This document shows positions 6,258-48,925 of a stretch of DNA of 50,217 bases, one piece after another; within the stretch, counting starts at the first letter, position 1; each line of letters begins with the position of its first letter. The position numbers and the translations under genes are program-made. Source of the stretch: Candidatus Methanorbis basalitermitum (GTDB taxonomy: Archaea; Halobacteriota; Methanomicrobia; Methanomicrobiales; Methanocorpusculaceae); assembly GCA_031287415.1 (NCBI GenBank), contig JAITSY010000028.1, positions 1 to 50,217 on the forward strand, read 5' to 3'. The notes under the pieces were generated by a model. It worked only from the letters and a program-made list of their open reading frames with translations. It was not told the DNA's origin and did not search any database.

Positions 6258-6273
6258 ACGATCATGGAAAAAA

Positions 6274-6460
6274 CTGCACGCCTCTGATAGGGGTTCCGCC
6301 GACACATCTGCGCAAACAGCAAGTAAGGCTTGGTCTTGCGTCGTTGGTGACATGCACGTGCATTGCGGGCAGCGAGTTCCCTACATCGGGCTGCCTCACG
6401 CAAGACAAGCATCTCGCCAGAGCTGCAAGCATTCTGCAGTCATTCCGTTGCCATGCAACT
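6274..6460 (+). repeat. H1 palindromic element, long copy
   Basis: Starts 16 bp after the methyltransferase stop with CTGCACGCCTCTGATAG and ends with CATTCCGTTGCCATGCAACT. The inner part (CCGCCGACACATCTGCGCAA and following) matches the reverse complement of the copy at 17802-17930. The outer part (GACAAGCATCTCGCC, GCAGTCATTCCGTTGCC) matches copies at 40971-41073 and 37664-37775. It is the longest copy here, about 187 bp. Open frames through it are incidental. Confidence 0.7.
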
Positions 6461-8369: not shown

Positions 8370-8498
8370 TTCCGAAAAATATGGAATTATCAGTTTGAAT
8401 GGGAACAGTTCTTCAAATCTGAAATATAACTGTCTATATCAAAAAACGACGAAACATTTATCCATTACCACTTAAACCAACGAATCCGAAAAAATATG
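8370..8498 (+). repeat. M element (MITE-like) copy 1
   Basis: Contains the family core CAGTTTGAATGGGAACAGTT, then CTTCAAATCT, ATATAACTGTCTATATCA, CGACGAAACATTTA and AATCCGAAAAAATATG. A 13-14 bp direct repeat (TCCGAAAAATATG) bounds this copy. It ends 7 bp short of the iscU stop. Related copies lie at 17021, 21669, 29902 and 44294. No transposase is encoded. Confidence 0.8.
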
Positions 8499-11887: not shown

Positions 11888-11911
11888 CTGCAAAGCCTTT
11901 GGTTTTGCAGC
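11888..11911 (+). repeat. H2 palindrome copy 2
   Basis: CTGCAAAGCCTTTGGTTTTG then CAGC, immediately 5' of tRNA-Thr. It lies beside an H1 copy, as H2 copies at 41090 and 42574 also lie near H1 copies. Confidence 0.8.
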
Positions 11912-11913
11912 CC

Positions 11914-11976
11914 TGCGAAACCGCGGTCCCGCTGCCCTACAATACACGGCACGCCTCTATCAGAGGCGTGCAGCAT
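11914..11976 (-). repeat. H1 palindromic element copy with perfect hairpin
   Basis: GCACGCCTCT-ATC-AGAGGCGTGC at 11949-11971 is a perfect 10-bp stem with a 3-base loop. The flank (on the minus strand GTATTGTAGGGCAGCGGGAC) matches the long copies. Intergenic. Confidence 0.85.
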
Positions 11977-17020: not shown

Positions 17021-17100
17021 ATCAGTTTGAATGGGAACAGTTCTTCAAACCAAAAACATAACTGTCTATATCAATAAAGAACGAAGAAACATGTATTAAG
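17021..17100 (+). repeat. M element copy 2
   Basis: ATCAGTTTGAATGGGAACAG, then TTCTTCAAAC, ATAACTGTCTATATCAATAA and GAACGAAGAAACAT, matching the copy at 8370. Its left edge is about 10 bp from the point where metX coding similarity stops. Confidence 0.85.
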
Positions 17101-17171
17101 TGTCATTCTGAGGAGAAATAGAGATGATGGGTAAATATAAGAGTACAAGGGCTAAAGTTGAATAAATAACT

Positions 17172-17590: not shown

Positions 17591-17965
17591 TAGAAACCCA
17601 AGGAGGGATAACAGGCCAAGAGGAACAGTGGGAAGCAGAGGATCCCTGTGGGAAGCGGGGGCTACTCATCCAGACTGATACTATTTGGCCCACGACGCTT
17701 CCCGGGCCCGTTCACGAATGGGGAGTCTCGCAGGCGCCGTAATCCCGACATCGTTGAGAAACGCCGTCATCGTAACCCTACTGGAGTGCGTGAGATTCAT
17801 AGTTGCATGGCAGCGAAACCCGTCTACCCTGCAATACACGTACACACCGCCGACGACGCAAGGCCAAGCCTCGCTTGTGCTGCTTGCGTAGATGTGTCGG
17901 CGTAACCCCTATCACAGGATTGTAGCCCCTACTGCTGCTTTTGCAGCAAGTTTTGCTGTTTTAGC
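17591..17965. other. Gap after GNAT pseudogene
   Basis: Holds an H1 element on the minus strand (17802-17930); the rest has no supportable gene. Confidence 0.4.
17802..17930 (-). repeat. H1 palindromic element, long copy
   Basis: Read on the minus strand: CCTGTGATAGGGGTTACGCC, GACACATCTACGCAAGCAGC, then CTTGGCCTTGCGTCGTCGGC, TATTGCAGGGTAGACGGG and TTTCGCTGCCATGCAACT. The inner half matches 6274-6460. GGTTACGCC and TTTCGCTGCCATGCAAC match the copy inside the decarboxylase gene. Confidence 0.75.
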
Positions 17966-20393: not shown

Positions 20394-20628
20394 TTGAGTA
20401 AGGAATATTCACAGTTGTTCATACTAAAGATTTTCCTCCTATTTCCTTCTTTTCACAGCCTCCATCCAAAAAAATCGGGCGACGAATGGAAGATGGGGAG
20501 GAGTTGCCGCCTCTCGAAGTCGACTGTGATATGGTATTCGCTGGAGAAATCGCTTGCCGTTTCCCCCTTGAAGATTGCAGCACCCACAGGCAGTAGTTGC
20601 ATGGCACACCTCTATCAGGGACGTGCAG
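20394..20628. other. Gap between znuA and MFS pseudogene
   Basis: Promoter region for znuACB on the minus strand, plus an H1 copy at 20603-20628. No ORF is supported. Confidence 0.4.
20603..20628 (-). repeat. H1 palindromic element, short copy
   Basis: On the minus strand GCTGCACGTCCCTGATAGAG then GTGTGCC. It begins 1 bp after the TAG that ends the MFS pseudogene and is followed by CATGCAAC, the usual element end. Confidence 0.8.
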
Positions 20629-21665
20629 CTATTCCCGTACTGATTTTTCTTCCCGGAGGAAGATGCACAGAACGAAGAGAACAATCGCCAGGCTGGCGGA
20701 TATGGTGAGGGCCATGTCAAATCAGGAGCTGAGGATCTCGACTGCGATTACTGCCTGGGAGGTTTCGGTGATACCTAAGCTGCTTGCCGCGGTCATGACA
20801 CCTCAAATGAAGATGAGGTTGTAGATAGTAGTGCCGAGGGTCCTGAACGCAAAACGCCCAAGTCCAGTGAGGCTTGAGCCCATGTCCTGTTTTAATGCAG
20901 GAGCTGCATTCATGCTGAGAGTAATGAGGAGTGTTGTGGCGAGGGCGATGAGGGGGCAAGGGCTAGGATGATCAGACCAAGGCCTGGTACCGGAGTGAGG
21001 GGTAAGGAGGAAGAAGACAACAGCGATCATGACGATTCTTGCCATTAATCATGTAATGGATTTTTCCGGCAAGTTTTGTGTAGGGGAGGCCTGCAGTGAT
21101 TCCAGCGATCATCATTCCGACGGAGGCTGCGATGATGATGAACACGGATTTGGAGATCGTGTAGCTGTGGACATGTTCGAGATAGAACGGGAAGAGACAG
21201 GTTGCTCCGGCAAAGGTGAAGAAGAGCATCCCGAAGACGATATTTGCAATGACAAAGGATCTGCTTTTTAAGAGACTGAGATCAAGTAGCGGGTCTGCTC
21301 AGTGCAGTTCGCACCAGACAAAGCTGTTGAGGCAAATTGCGGCAAACAAAATGGCTGCGAGAATCGAAAGAGATGTCCAGCTAAGCGTGATACCTTTGGA
21401 GAAGGCAAAGAGGAATGCGGCAAACCAGACGAAGACAAGGACTGCCCCCGATGCAGTCAAAGCCTTTAAGTGATGCTTTGGCGACTGCAGCGTTTGGAAT
21501 GGCAAAGTTGCCGAGAATGACAGCAGCAATTCCGACATGATGTTGATGAAGAAAATCCTGTTCCAGGAGAGAGAAGCGGCAAGGTATCCGCCGGGTGTCA
21601 GACCAAGAGCCATGCCAACGGCAGCAAAGAGGACGATGAGCGGCATGCCTTTTGCTTTTCGGAAG
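20629..21665 (-). pseudogene. EmrB/QacA-type MFS drug transporter, N-truncated with stops
   Basis: Begins mid-protein at FRKAKGMPLIVLFAAVGMAL. The family motif GLTPGGYLAASLSWNRIFFI identifies the 14-TM DHA2 group. An in-frame TGA at 21299-21301 interrupts SFVWCELH*ADPLLDLSLL. After it come VFGMLFFTFAGATCLFPFYL, a frameshift near 21040, further in-frame stops at about 20823 and 20730, and an end at 20629 (FLREEKSVRE). About 190 N-terminal residues are absent, and the break coincides with an M element (21669). Dead gene. Confidence 0.88.
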
Positions 21666-21668
21666 TAT

Positions 21669-21779
21669 CCGTTTGAATGGGAACAGTTCTTCAAATCTAA
21701 AATATAACTGTCCTGATCAACAGAAAACAACGAAATATTTATAGATTATCACTAAAACCGGCAAGTCCGATCGGAAATA
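21669..21779 (+). repeat. M element copy 3
   Basis: CCGTTTGAATGGGAACAGTT, CTTCAAATCTAAAATATAAC, TGTCCTGATCAACAG, AACGAAATATTTATAGATTA, then CCGGCAAGTCCGATCGGAAA. It directly abuts the broken end of the MFS pseudogene. Confidence 0.85.
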
Positions 21780-29590: not shown

Positions 29591-29901
29591 ACGTGTCAGT
29601 GATAAATAGGGCTGAATACATATAAAGGATAACGCCTGGATGACGTTCCAGCATCATGCTGTTGCTGCACGCCAATGCAACGACGAGAATTCCCACGGAG
29701 ACCGAAGAACCACCGGCGGAGCCGATAGAAAAACTTGTGGCGTCTTTTTCTTTGTCAGCAGAATAGCCCCTACCGAGCGGGAGTACCTGTCAGAGAGAAA
29801 GGTTTTTCTGTATGAAAAGTAGGTAATATGGAATTAGAATGCAGTCTTGGATAGTATATAATATCGCACGTCAAATATTAATGTAAGAAGTTATACAAAA
29901 A
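29591..29901. other. Gap upstream of ilvC
   Basis: Carries the presumed ilvC promoter on the minus strand (an AT-rich patch 29600-29630) and nothing else recognised. The segment at 29868-29890 (AATATTAATGT then AAGAA) resembles sequence beside the M copy at 44294. Confidence 0.4.
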
Positions 29902-29943
29902 TTTGAAGAACAGCCCCCATTCAAACTGATAATTCTGAAAAAT
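29902..29943 (-). repeat. M element copy 4, partial
   Basis: On the minus strand TCAGAATTATCAGTTTGAAT then a G-rich interruption and CTGTTCTTCAAAT; only the 5' part of the element is present. It directly abuts the end of the ribB pseudogene. Confidence 0.75.
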
Positions 29944-35538: not shown

Positions 35539-35564
35539 GCTGCACACCCCTGATAGAGGTGTGC
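35539..35564 (+). repeat. H1 palindromic element, short copy
   Basis: GCTGCACACCCCTGATAGAG then GTGTGC, followed by CGTGCAAC. Intergenic. Confidence 0.85.
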
Positions 35565-35754
35565 CGTGCAACTAGTCCAGTATCCGCAGAACCCACCCGA
35601 ACATAGACCTCGGTATCCGCGGGCAGTAAAATATAGTATCATTATGGATGGCAGCAGCTGCCTTCCGACACTTGACAGCTGTGGGCAACGGGGGGGACGG
35701 ATTTTGTCCGCCCCAAACGCGACGAGTGCAAGGGGCATCACCCTCGATGACAAC

Positions 35755-37430: not shown

Positions 37431-38984
37431 TCATCGTCTCCCAACAGTTATTTCGCCGTAGTCATTAACCCCAATTACCTTTTCACCAGCTTCTCGCAGC
37501 TTTTGGATGTAGCTGATGACCTCACCGGTCAGCATTTCCCCAGGGCAGACGAATGGGATGCCCGGCGGATAGGGGATAATAGAAGAGGCACAGATGCGGC
37601 CCGCCCCGGCAACAAGAGGAATACGTTCCTTGTCTTTAGGGACCAAAAAGAGATCAAGCTTTTGCTGCACGCCTCTGATAGCGGTTACGCCAGCACGGTC
37701 AACGGTGTGCAGCGTTGCAGGGCAGAGGGACAAGCATTTCGCTATATGCGCAGTCATTTCGCTGCCATGCAACCCTTCAGACACCGCGCTGACAGATTTC
37801 ATCCCAGCCTTGGAGCTGCATGCATGCTCGTTGCTGATATCTTCAAGAGCTGCAAGCAGCCGCTCCATATCCCGCTTCGTACTGCCGATCCCCGTCATAC
37901 ACATGAGAATGTTCCCAGTCGTAAGCTCAGCAAAGATGCCGCGTTTCATCAGCAGTTTTTCCAACTCTGCTCCATCAATCCCGAGAGCACTCATATCAAG
38001 ATTGATCTTCGTGATGTCAAGGCTGACACCTGCTGCTGCATTATAAGGATTGCCGATGGCAACCAAGCCCTGGATCTTTCTTGCCTCGGCATAGAAGTAC
38101 AGGAGAGCGTCATGCCACTCGGTCATCACAAGTTTTTTGTGCCGATCGCAAATGTCAGCATTGATGTCAAGCGAAGCCATGAGAAGATATGAGGGGCTCG
38201 TTGATTGGATCATCTGGAGCTTGTCTTCAAGGACATAATGATCGACACGGTCGGAGTTCAGGTTCAGCACGGCGCTCTGGGTAAAAGAAGCAAGGGTTTT
38301 GTGAATCGAGTTGACGATGATGTCTGCGCCCGCAACCTCGGCGGATTTTGGCAGGTCGGAAAACCCGGCGTCGCCAAAGAACTTGAGATGAGCACCGTGA
38401 GCCTGATCGACAATCAAAATTTTTCCATTGGCATGCGAAACATCCGCAATGGCCTGGATGTTTGAGCAGATGCCGTAATAGTTTGGCGATGGAAGAATAA
38501 TCGCCTCAGCCTCAGGATTTTTCCGGATGCAGCGTTCAATCTCGGCGACGGGGATCCCACCTGAGACGCCATATTCATGAATCATCTCGGGGTACGCATA
38601 TACCGGCTGAATGTCGGCAAGAACTAGTGCGTTGAAGGCGGCCTTGTGGGAGTTGCGGGCCATTATCAGTTTTTTTCCTTTCGAAACCGATGCCATGATA
38701 GCAGCAATCACGCCCCCGCTCGTTCCGTTGATAAGAAGATACGATCGCTTCACGCCGTAAAGTTTTGCATACTCTTCCTGTACGGTTTTGAGAATACCCT
38801 CGGTCTGGAACAGATTGTCCGCACCTGGAATTTCGGTGATGTCGCAGTCCATAATCTGGTCAAGAAAGGGTGCATAACCAAACCGTCGATAGACGGCGGA
38901 ACCTTTGTGTCCCGGCATATGGAAGGATACGGTCTTCTTTGCCGCATGCATGGTCAGAAAATTCAAAATGGGACGTTCGGTCAT
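37431..38984 (-). CDS. Orn/Lys/Arg decarboxylase (short SpeA/CadA-like form) with in-frame repeat insertion
   Basis: PLP fold-I decarboxylase of basic amino acids. The 517-residue protein opens FHMPGHKGS, has NGTSGGVIAAI (86-96), VDQAHGAH (192-199), the PLP lysine in SIHKTLASFTQSA (K229) and the C-terminal PYPPGIPFVCPGE (471-483). Short-form members run about 480-490 residues. The excess maps to residues ~404-441 (GLHGSEMTAHIAKC...DRAGVTAIRGVQQ), in the linker between large and C-terminal domains. The DNA there (37664-37775) is a copy of the dispersed H1 element. The frame is uninterrupted. Substrate (Arg, Lys, Orn or diaminobutyrate) is undetermined. Confidence 0.93.
   Translation of the reverse strand: MTERPILNFLTMHAAKKTVSFHMPGHKGSAVYRRFGYAPFLDQIMDCDITEIPGADNLFQTEGILKTVQEEYAKLYGVKRSYLLINGTSGGVIAAIMASVSKGKKLIMARNSHKAAFNALVLADIQPVYAYPEMIHEYGVSGGIPVAEIERCIRKNPEAEAIILPSPNYYGICSNIQAIADVSHANGKILIVDQAHGAHLKFFGDAGFSDLPKSAEVAGADIIVNSIHKTLASFTQSAVLNLNSDRVDHYVLEDKLQMIQSTSPSYLLMASLDINADICDRHKKLVMTEWHDALLYFYAEARKIQGLVAIGNPYNAAAGVSLDITKINLDMSALGIDGAELEKLLMKRGIFAELTTGNILMCMTGIGSTKRDMERLLAALEDISNEHACSSKAGMKSVSAVSEGLHGSEMTAHIAKCLSLCPATLHTVDRAGVTAIRGVQQKLDLFLVPKDKERIPLVAGAGRICASSIIPYPPGIPFVCPGEMLTGEVISYIQKLREAGEKVIGVNDYGEITVGRR
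37664..37775 (+). repeat. H1 palindromic element inside the decarboxylase gene
   Basis: Shares with intergenic copies GCTGCACGCCTCTGATAG (37664-37681), GGTTACGCC (as in 17802-17930), TTGCAGGGCAG, GACAAGCATTTCGC (13 of 14 with 6274-6460) and GCAGTCATTTCGCTGCCATG continuing CAAC (22 of 24). In the gene's frame, read from the other strand, no stop arises. About 112 bp, coding for ~37 residues. Confidence 0.85.
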
Positions 38985-40970: not shown

Positions 40971-41073
40971 GCTGTAAGCCTCTGATAGAGGTGTGCATGG
41001 CAGGACCACGGGTTCCCTGCATCAGGCGACAGCGGGACAAGCATCTCGCCAAAGCCTGCAAACCTCTCTGAAA
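40971..41073 (+). repeat. H1 palindromic element copy
   Basis: GCTGTAAGCCTCTGATAGAG GTGTGC, then GGTTCCCTGCATCAGGCGAC and GACAAGCATCTCGCC, the last shared with 6274-6460 and with the copy in the decarboxylase gene. Confidence 0.8.
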
Positions 41074-41089
41074 TAAAGGAGTGTCCGAT

Positions 41090-41114
41090 GCTGCAAAGCC
41101 TTTGGCTTTGCAGC
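41090..41114 (+). repeat. H2 palindrome copy 4
   Basis: GCTGCAAAGCCTTTGGCTTT then GCAGC; identical to the copy at 8242. Confidence 0.85.
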
Positions 41115-42353: not shown

Positions 42354-42446
42354 CTGTATAGACAACCAGCAACCGGGACCGCAGGCGAATGTCATCGGGC
42401 AGGTTGGATGTATGATCTGCCCGACAGTGGTAAATTATCCGGCACG

Positions 42447-42507
42447 CTGGACGCCCCTGATAGAGAGGTGTGCATTGCATGGCAACGGGTTCCGCTGCCA
42501 TGCAACT
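42447..42507 (+). repeat. H1 palindromic element copy
   Basis: CTGGACGCCCCTGATAGAGA GGTGTGC, followed by GCATGGCAACGGGTTCCGCT and GCCATGCAAC. Confidence 0.8.
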
Positions 42508-44293: not shown

Positions 44294-44413
44294 GAATTAT
44301 TAGTTTAAATGGGAATAGCTCTTCAAATCAGAAATATAGCAATCTATATCAATAGAGAACGACGAAACAGGTATACACTACAAGTAAAACCGATAAGTCC
44401 GATAACATTTCCA
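44294..44413 (+). repeat. M element copy 5
   Basis: AGAATTATTAGTTTAAATGG, AATAGCTCTTCAAATC, ATCTATATCAATAGAGAACG, ACGAAACAGG and AAAACCGATAAGTCCGATAA, parallel to the copies at 8370 and 21669. Confidence 0.8.
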
Positions 44414-44480: not shown

Positions 44481-44541
44481 GCTGCACGCCTCTGATAGAG
44501 GTGTGCAGCGTCGCAGGCAGCAGGTTCCGTTGCCACGCAAC
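44481..44541 (+). repeat. H1 palindromic element copy
   Basis: GCTGCACGCCTCTGATAGAG GTGTGCAGC, then CAGGTTCCGTTGCCACGCAA C. A 12-13 bp stem. Confidence 0.85.
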
Positions 44542-44628
44542 TTTACCAATGTTCAACCCAACCATCAGAAAAACGACGCTGACAACTCTCCTTATCTCGT
44601 CTGCCGGTGCATAGTATAAAGGCAATAT

Positions 44629-48569: not shown

Positions 48570-48610
48570 GCTGCACACCTCTGATAGAGGGTTGCAGGGC
48601 AATGGAACCC
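48570..48610 (+). repeat. H1 palindromic element copy
   Basis: GCTGCACACCTCTGATAGAG GGTTGC, then AGGGCAATGGAACCC. It lies 31 bp after the map stop and marks the lower edge of the leuC fragment. Confidence 0.8.
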
Positions 48611-48925
48611 TGAGCCAGGTTTCGCCAGGAACCATACCTACGGCAATGTCAGTCGGATCCATGCCGATTGAGAAGGCCCCGATTCCACCATAGATGCAGA
48701 TGTGGCTGTCGGCGTCGATGACAAGATCCCATGGCCCAACGAGGCCTTTCACAGGCAGGAAAACATGTTCAATGCTGCAGGTGCCTCCCCCGTAATAATG
48801 GGTGAGGCCTGCTTTTTTGGCAGATTGGTGGGTCACATGGATCTGTTCGGCCGAAGCGATGTCTTTGTTCGGCGTGAAGTTGTCGCAGACAAAGACCACT
48901 TTATCTTTGTCAAAAACCCACAAAC
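48605..48925 (-). pseudogene. leuC: 3-isopropylmalate dehydratase large subunit (LeuC), internal fragment
   Basis: LeuC catalyses the isomerisation of isopropylmalate in leucine synthesis. Only about 105 residues remain: FDKDKVVFVCDNFTPNKDIA, SAEQIHVTHQSAKKAGLTHY, IEHVFLPVKGLV, then VIDADSHICIYGGIGAFSIG, where the family has GADSHTCTYGALGAF, and MDPTDIAVGMVPGETWLRVP. Both ends are missing: an H1 element begins right after the last conserved residue, and upstream sequence is unrelated. Substitutions at conserved positions show long decay. Confidence 0.85.

Follow-up and report, generated by a model that had tools for sequence, protein, structure and literature searches.

A double-hairpin repeat inserted in frame in a decarboxylase gene of a Methanomicrobiales archaeon

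We report that a 111-bp segment within an intact Orn/Lys/Arg decarboxylase gene is, as confirmed by sequence comparisons, an inserted copy of a mobile repeat. The gene lies on a 50,217-nt stretch of DNA (the window) from a Methanocorpusculum MAG of 1.16 Mb, representing an uncultured methane producer, comprising 33 contigs and 74% complete. We consider it highly probable that this repeat is mobile, that it prefers WGSAWWW as target and that its in-frame insertion in the decarboxylase is tolerated, a reading drawn from the sequence of this one MAG.

Specifically, the gene (37431-38984, minus strand), recognised by its open reading frame and Pfam domains (OKR_DC_1, 4.9e-63; OKR_DC_1_C, 8.6e-12), encodes 517 aa, and the best fold match of the predicted structure is 2x3l. 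The complete double-hairpin copy (37664-37774, plus strand), identified by blastn, orthologue alignment and covariance model, occupies the linker that leads to the C-terminal domain. Its 111 bp are read in reverse orientation as 37 codons, which results in a net gain of 37 residues, touches residues 404-441 and would yield peptides that include CLSLCPATLHTVDR and AGVTAIR; despite the element, the reading frame is open across all 517 aa. The preliminary description of this DNA had noted the open frame and the added linker residues (~404-441), and both agree with the uninterrupted ORF; the start that it gave, 37664, stands and the end has been corrected from 37775 (112 bp) to 37774. It had also noted stop codons on the opposite strand of the palindrome, and these are seen as TGATAG in forward frame 0 of the element, while the frame used in the decarboxylase has no stop.

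The 37 residues are precisely absent from 20 of 20 congener decarboxylase orthologues covering the site, with both flanks conserved (the named relatives in this search were Methanocorpusculum species). At the DNA level the relatives have GAAG directly followed by AAAAGCTT, or close variants, where the window has GAAG, then GGTTGCATGG...GTGCAGC and then AAAAGCTT, and this empty-site comparison revealed no target-site duplication. Moreover, a covariance model search detected the repeat in 0 of 24 congeners, and of 150 genomes drawn from the order only the MAG itself had it, under filters stricter than those of the congener search. An insertion confined to this genome, the outcome that the preliminary description had named as support for its reading, is what the orthologue alignment reveals, the repeat-free congeners also being without the 37 residues.

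Repeat family, target site and movement

In its own genome, blastn places the decarboxylase segment at ~40 positions (< 1e-5), including a near full-length match of 79% identity (E=1e-21). A covariance model trained on 11 copies, the decarboxylase one not among them, found ~125 copies in the 1.16-Mb assembly (E up to 0.01), and the decarboxylase copy ranked fourth among these (109.8 bits, E=4e-24). The matches to other copies, first noted by inspection of the letters, are therefore genuine and well in excess of what chance would produce, and they hold in the alignments as well as in the covariance model, where they might have failed.

Alignment of 22 copies, trimmed by the ends GCTGCA...GCAAC(T), showed that the copies are modular and range between 35 and 188 bp, with a hairpin A, GCTGCACGCCTCTGATAGAGGTGTGCAGC at its shortest, a hairpin B (GTTGCA.....TGCAAC) and inner modules that may or may not be present; the ends GCTGCA and TGCAAC constitute a 6-nt imperfect inverted repeat. 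In the decarboxylase copy two adjoining hairpins fill 37664-37713 (hairpin A, plus strand, stem GCTGCACGCC / GGTGTGCAGC) and 37714-37773 (hairpin B, plus strand, stem beginning GTTGCA / TGCAAC), with a DNA fold z of -3.1; z for four other copies varied from -2.4 to -6.9. Across 77 copies 91.5% of the pairs were formed, pairing was kept through base changes and covariation exceeded that of all 500 shuffles, a test weakened by the kinship of the copies.

Other copies in the window are found outside recognised genes at 6273-6460 (plus strand, 188 bp with extra internal modules, 54.3 bits), 11903-11974 (minus, 35.3 bits) and 17801-17926 (minus, 45.1 bits). Short copies are present at 20595-20629 (minus, 25.1 bits) and, past the 3' end of an aminotransferase gene, at 35539-35578 (plus, 26.4 bits). 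On the plus strand, copies also occur at 40971-41097 (33.2 bits), 42446-42507 (48.6 bits) and 44481-44542 (62 bp with a perfect hairpin A, identified by score, 45.1 bits, and fold), together with a weak copy at 48570-48664 (20.0 bits). Many copies contain further palindromic modules, as if repeat had entered repeat (e.g. the copy at G000:C8:64826-64963 and that at 6273-6460 of the window). No Rfam family matched the element, and neither did viral contigs (searched with exact patterns) or plasmids. The family is divergent and its activity may have ceased.

The host bases at -7 to -1 before clean left ends follow WGSAWWW (111 copies), in that -6 is G in 70 of 111 (p ~1e-20), -5 is C or G in 93 and -4 is A in 67; the triplet KSA is present at the motif in 52 copies vs 7 expected. 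Directly 5' of the decarboxylase copy the host sequence is AGCTTTT (37657-37663, plus strand), which fits the motif at six of seven positions, and a similar flank is present at the orthologues' empty site. The right flank shows a weak bias. Since the flanks beyond the motif are unrelated, the copies represent mostly separate insertions. Target-site duplication, the mark of a MITE, was found neither in the 62 copies with two clean ends nor in the decarboxylase empty-site comparison. No parent transposon sharing the element ends was seen in the incomplete assembly (74%), and profiles for the Y1 transposase (PF01797) and TnpB (PF07282) had no match in the 1.16 Mb (~74% of the genome), while controls gave signal.

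These data point strongly to a short non-autonomous double-hairpin repeat that multiplied in this Methanocorpusculum lineage after its split from the sequenced relatives, its copies inserting beside host WGSAWWW without duplicating the target. The hairpins may have been mobilised in single-stranded form by an enzyme acting in trans, be it IS200/IS605-like or another. Within this scheme the most specific guess, which we put forward tentatively and regard as possible though not likely, is that the repeat is an IS200/IS605-derived palindrome element (PATE) that a Y1 transposase mobilises via single-stranded DNA. The terminal hairpins, the lack of target duplication and the one-sided 5' target motif speak for such a route, and PATEs are common in a haloarchaeon (PMC3119063). 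However, Y1_Tnp and TnpB gave no match in the 74% of the genome covered, 3 nt separate the motif from the element end and the hairpins extend to the very ends.

Copies in other genes and reading frames

A search for further in-gene copies, as the preliminary description had recommended, was rewarded with two more in-frame internal cases. A gene for a PAPS-reductase-type protein carries a 114-bp copy in frame (G000:C13 30410-30523), such that five congeners have ..RKE(I/V)KPGYYVAADSD.. where the protein here has ..QQKE[MLHASDR...SAAMQL]KPGYYVAADSD.. in a single frame, i.e. an insert of 38 aa (PRKE-IKPGYY in orthologues vs QQKE[38 aa]KPGYY). From a common GTG onward, the N-terminal stretch ahead of this copy is open in all six genomes and can be aligned; we infer this GTG to be the start codon. 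In the gene for a Hel308-type helicase (contig C26), a 143-bp copy and another repeat end lie in frame between the body of the protein and the C-terminal QKTLLDFRE, the counterpart of which, QKTLFDFGE, is C-terminal in four congeners; we take this peptide to resemble a PCNA-binding peptide.

Other copies end proteins. The repeat supplies the stop codon of TrpF (C11) and of peptide deformylase (C18), the latter through a copy at the junction with the formyltransferase gene (G000:C18:7344-7402) that probably also gives the formyltransferase a new N-terminus, MKLHASDRG..., with an internal TTG as a possible start. A copy at G000:C30:36144-36258 ends a helicase early; where its relatives continue with a TPR-like region, the repeat is followed here by no more than decayed traces of one. 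A scan of 14 more copies flanked by open sequence at either end yielded a single bridged gene, the truncated TPR helicase; the remaining candidates had a match at just one flank or in shadow frames and were rejected. In-frame internal copies are a small minority (3 shown of ~125), and with a heuristic scan (codon scores and ORF spans) the number of in-gene copies is a lower bound.

The outcome depends on phase. Forward frame 0 of the repeat meets TGATAG (..CTGATAG..) at once, and insertions in phase 0 produced the stops in TrpF, deformylase and the TPR helicase. Forward frame +1 reads LHASDRG and is used in every forward read-through case; the decarboxylase uses a reverse frame. Among the longer copies (62), frame +1 is open in 48, frame +2 in 51 and each reverse frame in 32-36, against a shuffled expectation of ~17, values that describe a family of related copies and are not independent proof of selection. 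We suggest that insertions of 3n length in an open phase would be tolerated in flexible protein linkers because the repeat is open in most of the six frames. A forward repeat stops or truncates the protein in phase 0 and is read through as LHASDRG... in phase +1. The decarboxylase copy entered reversed and in an open phase, and the loop of 37 residues that it adds, predicted to be disordered, is most probably tolerated and not maintained by selection. A bolder proposal is that the repeat represents an undescribed class of site-preferring, transposase-free double-hairpin elements in Methanomicrobiales, with a sequence shaped to stay translatable (five of six frames are open well above the shuffled expectation) and spread in coding sequence as part of its strategy; we think this unlikely.

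The decarboxylase insert and alternative explanations

An AlphaFold2 model based on 37 aligned sequences has a mean pLDDT of 85, and residues 392-439 are the sole stretch below 50, the remainder being well folded; the model thus predicts disorder for the insert, which lies in the linker leading to the C-terminal domain. Between the insert and the family consensus there are 13 differences, which affect all codon positions and change 9 codons nonsynonymously and 1 synonymously, the consensus not being the true parent copy and the sample being one insert. Differences between the rest of the gene and the congeners fall mainly in third positions (0.14/0.14/0.50). The gene is thus strongly constrained, and the insert, which has no synonymous excess, has the look of filler that the protein tolerates; the decarboxylase with its insert is presumably made and active.

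These data bear on the question whether the insert has been co-opted, either as a selected protein loop, with a part in regulation or in the binding of a partner, or at the RNA level as a hairpin that controls the transcript. The frame that is still open and the strong hairpins would fit such a role, which the predicted disorder and the lack of synonymous excess, a comparison of little power with a single copy, nevertheless render improbable. An assembly artefact, in which the metagenome assembler misjoined a repeat into the gene, deserves attention since multi-copy repeats break and mislead assemblies and this genome is incomplete and in 33 contigs; given that both flanks derive from one gene, that the empty site is precise with the frame kept, that two other genes are alike with different copies and that the decarboxylase copy has private substitutions, we regard it as very improbable. 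That the 37 residues are instead an old part of the decarboxylase, lost in the relatives and copied out of the gene to give the genomic repeats, is scarcely credible, as nothing was found in its favour (the longer linkers of some Firmicutes homologues consist of unrelated residues) and it is countered by the 20 of 20 congener orthologues precisely without the residues, the absence of decarboxylase sequence from other copies and the independent in-frame copies in other genes. Invasion of the gene by the element, as originally proposed, is supported by the empty sites in all 20 orthologues and with the in-frame copies in two further genes.

Related elements and other repeats in the window

Rickettsia palindromic elements (RPE) and Wolbachia palindromic elements (Ogata et al. 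2000, 2002, 2005, as summarised in PMC2229807 and PMC10969869) are, like the repeat described here, palindromes of ~110-150 bp that are present in many copies and in frame in unrelated conserved genes, the proteins tolerating them. The likeness to RPE that had been suggested holds in behaviour, as a multi-copy palindromic repeat is found in frame within three conserved genes. RPE differ in having bacterial hosts, and in-frame internal copies are far more frequent in Rickettsia, the group from which the reading of repeat DNA as added protein linkers is chiefly known. The accompanying statement that no archaeal case is known was mistaken: coding palindromic repeats were reported in Methanocaldococcus jannaschii (Suyama, Lathe and Bork 2005, as cited in PMC2229807). 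By the description given there, these are likewise palindromes with open frames fused into protein genes of an archaeal methanogen, but of a different order.

The SMR-A elements of Haloquadratum walsbyi (PMC3119063) are also ~110 bp long and bounded by inverted terminal repeats, do not duplicate their target and have neither a related transposon nor a known mobiliser, and the repeat shares the features by which haloarchaeal SMRs are recognised, the transposon search here being that with the Y1 and TnpB profiles. In contrast, SMR-A mostly enter palindromes of other mobile elements (PMC3119063), whereas the repeat lies mostly outside genes after WGSAWWW and has extra inner palindromic modules. 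Despite these modules, no PATE or IS605 target was identified at the copies. With PATE and IS200/IS605 elements it has in common palindromes at or near both ends, a 5' target motif and no target duplication, and it differs from them in that no transposase was found in 74% of the genome and in that its hairpins extend to the termini.

Fungal mitochondrial double-hairpin elements consist of two adjacent hairpins and are mobile and non-autonomous. By description they share the two-hairpin layout with the repeat, theirs being a mitochondrial setting.

The repeat is hence a new family of an already known kind, in another archaeal order; what is new is that its copies follow a WGSAWWW target motif without target-site duplication, and its empty sites are well documented. 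It represents a second archaeal instance, from a different order, of mobile palindromes becoming protein parts, with exact empty sites, a measurable motif and a clear rule for which insertions lengthen a protein and which terminate it. Two long-standing questions can now be tested in a group with cultured relatives: by what means palindromic repeats without a transposase are moved, and whether inserts that are translated are neutral padding or supply material from which new parts of proteins can arise.

The window also contains other repeats. A separate 85-nt repeat, TTTGAATGGGAACAGTTCTTCAAA..., has five copies that are ~72-79% alike (8389-8473, 17021-17105, 21667-21751 and 44299-44383 on the plus strand, ~29901-29941 on the minus strand) and may represent either a promoter/leader common to these sites or a further family of repeats; its inclusion in the palindrome family was rejected, there being no sequence in common. 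A second palindrome family, GCTGCAAAGCCTTTGGCTTTGCAGC, has six copies (8241, 11886, 39087, 41089, 41477 and 42573), often near copies of the main repeat. Finally, the contig ends (1-122 and 50028-50149) form a 122-nt inverted repeat that is 98% identical, suggesting that the assembly of the contig broke off at a multi-copy sequence.
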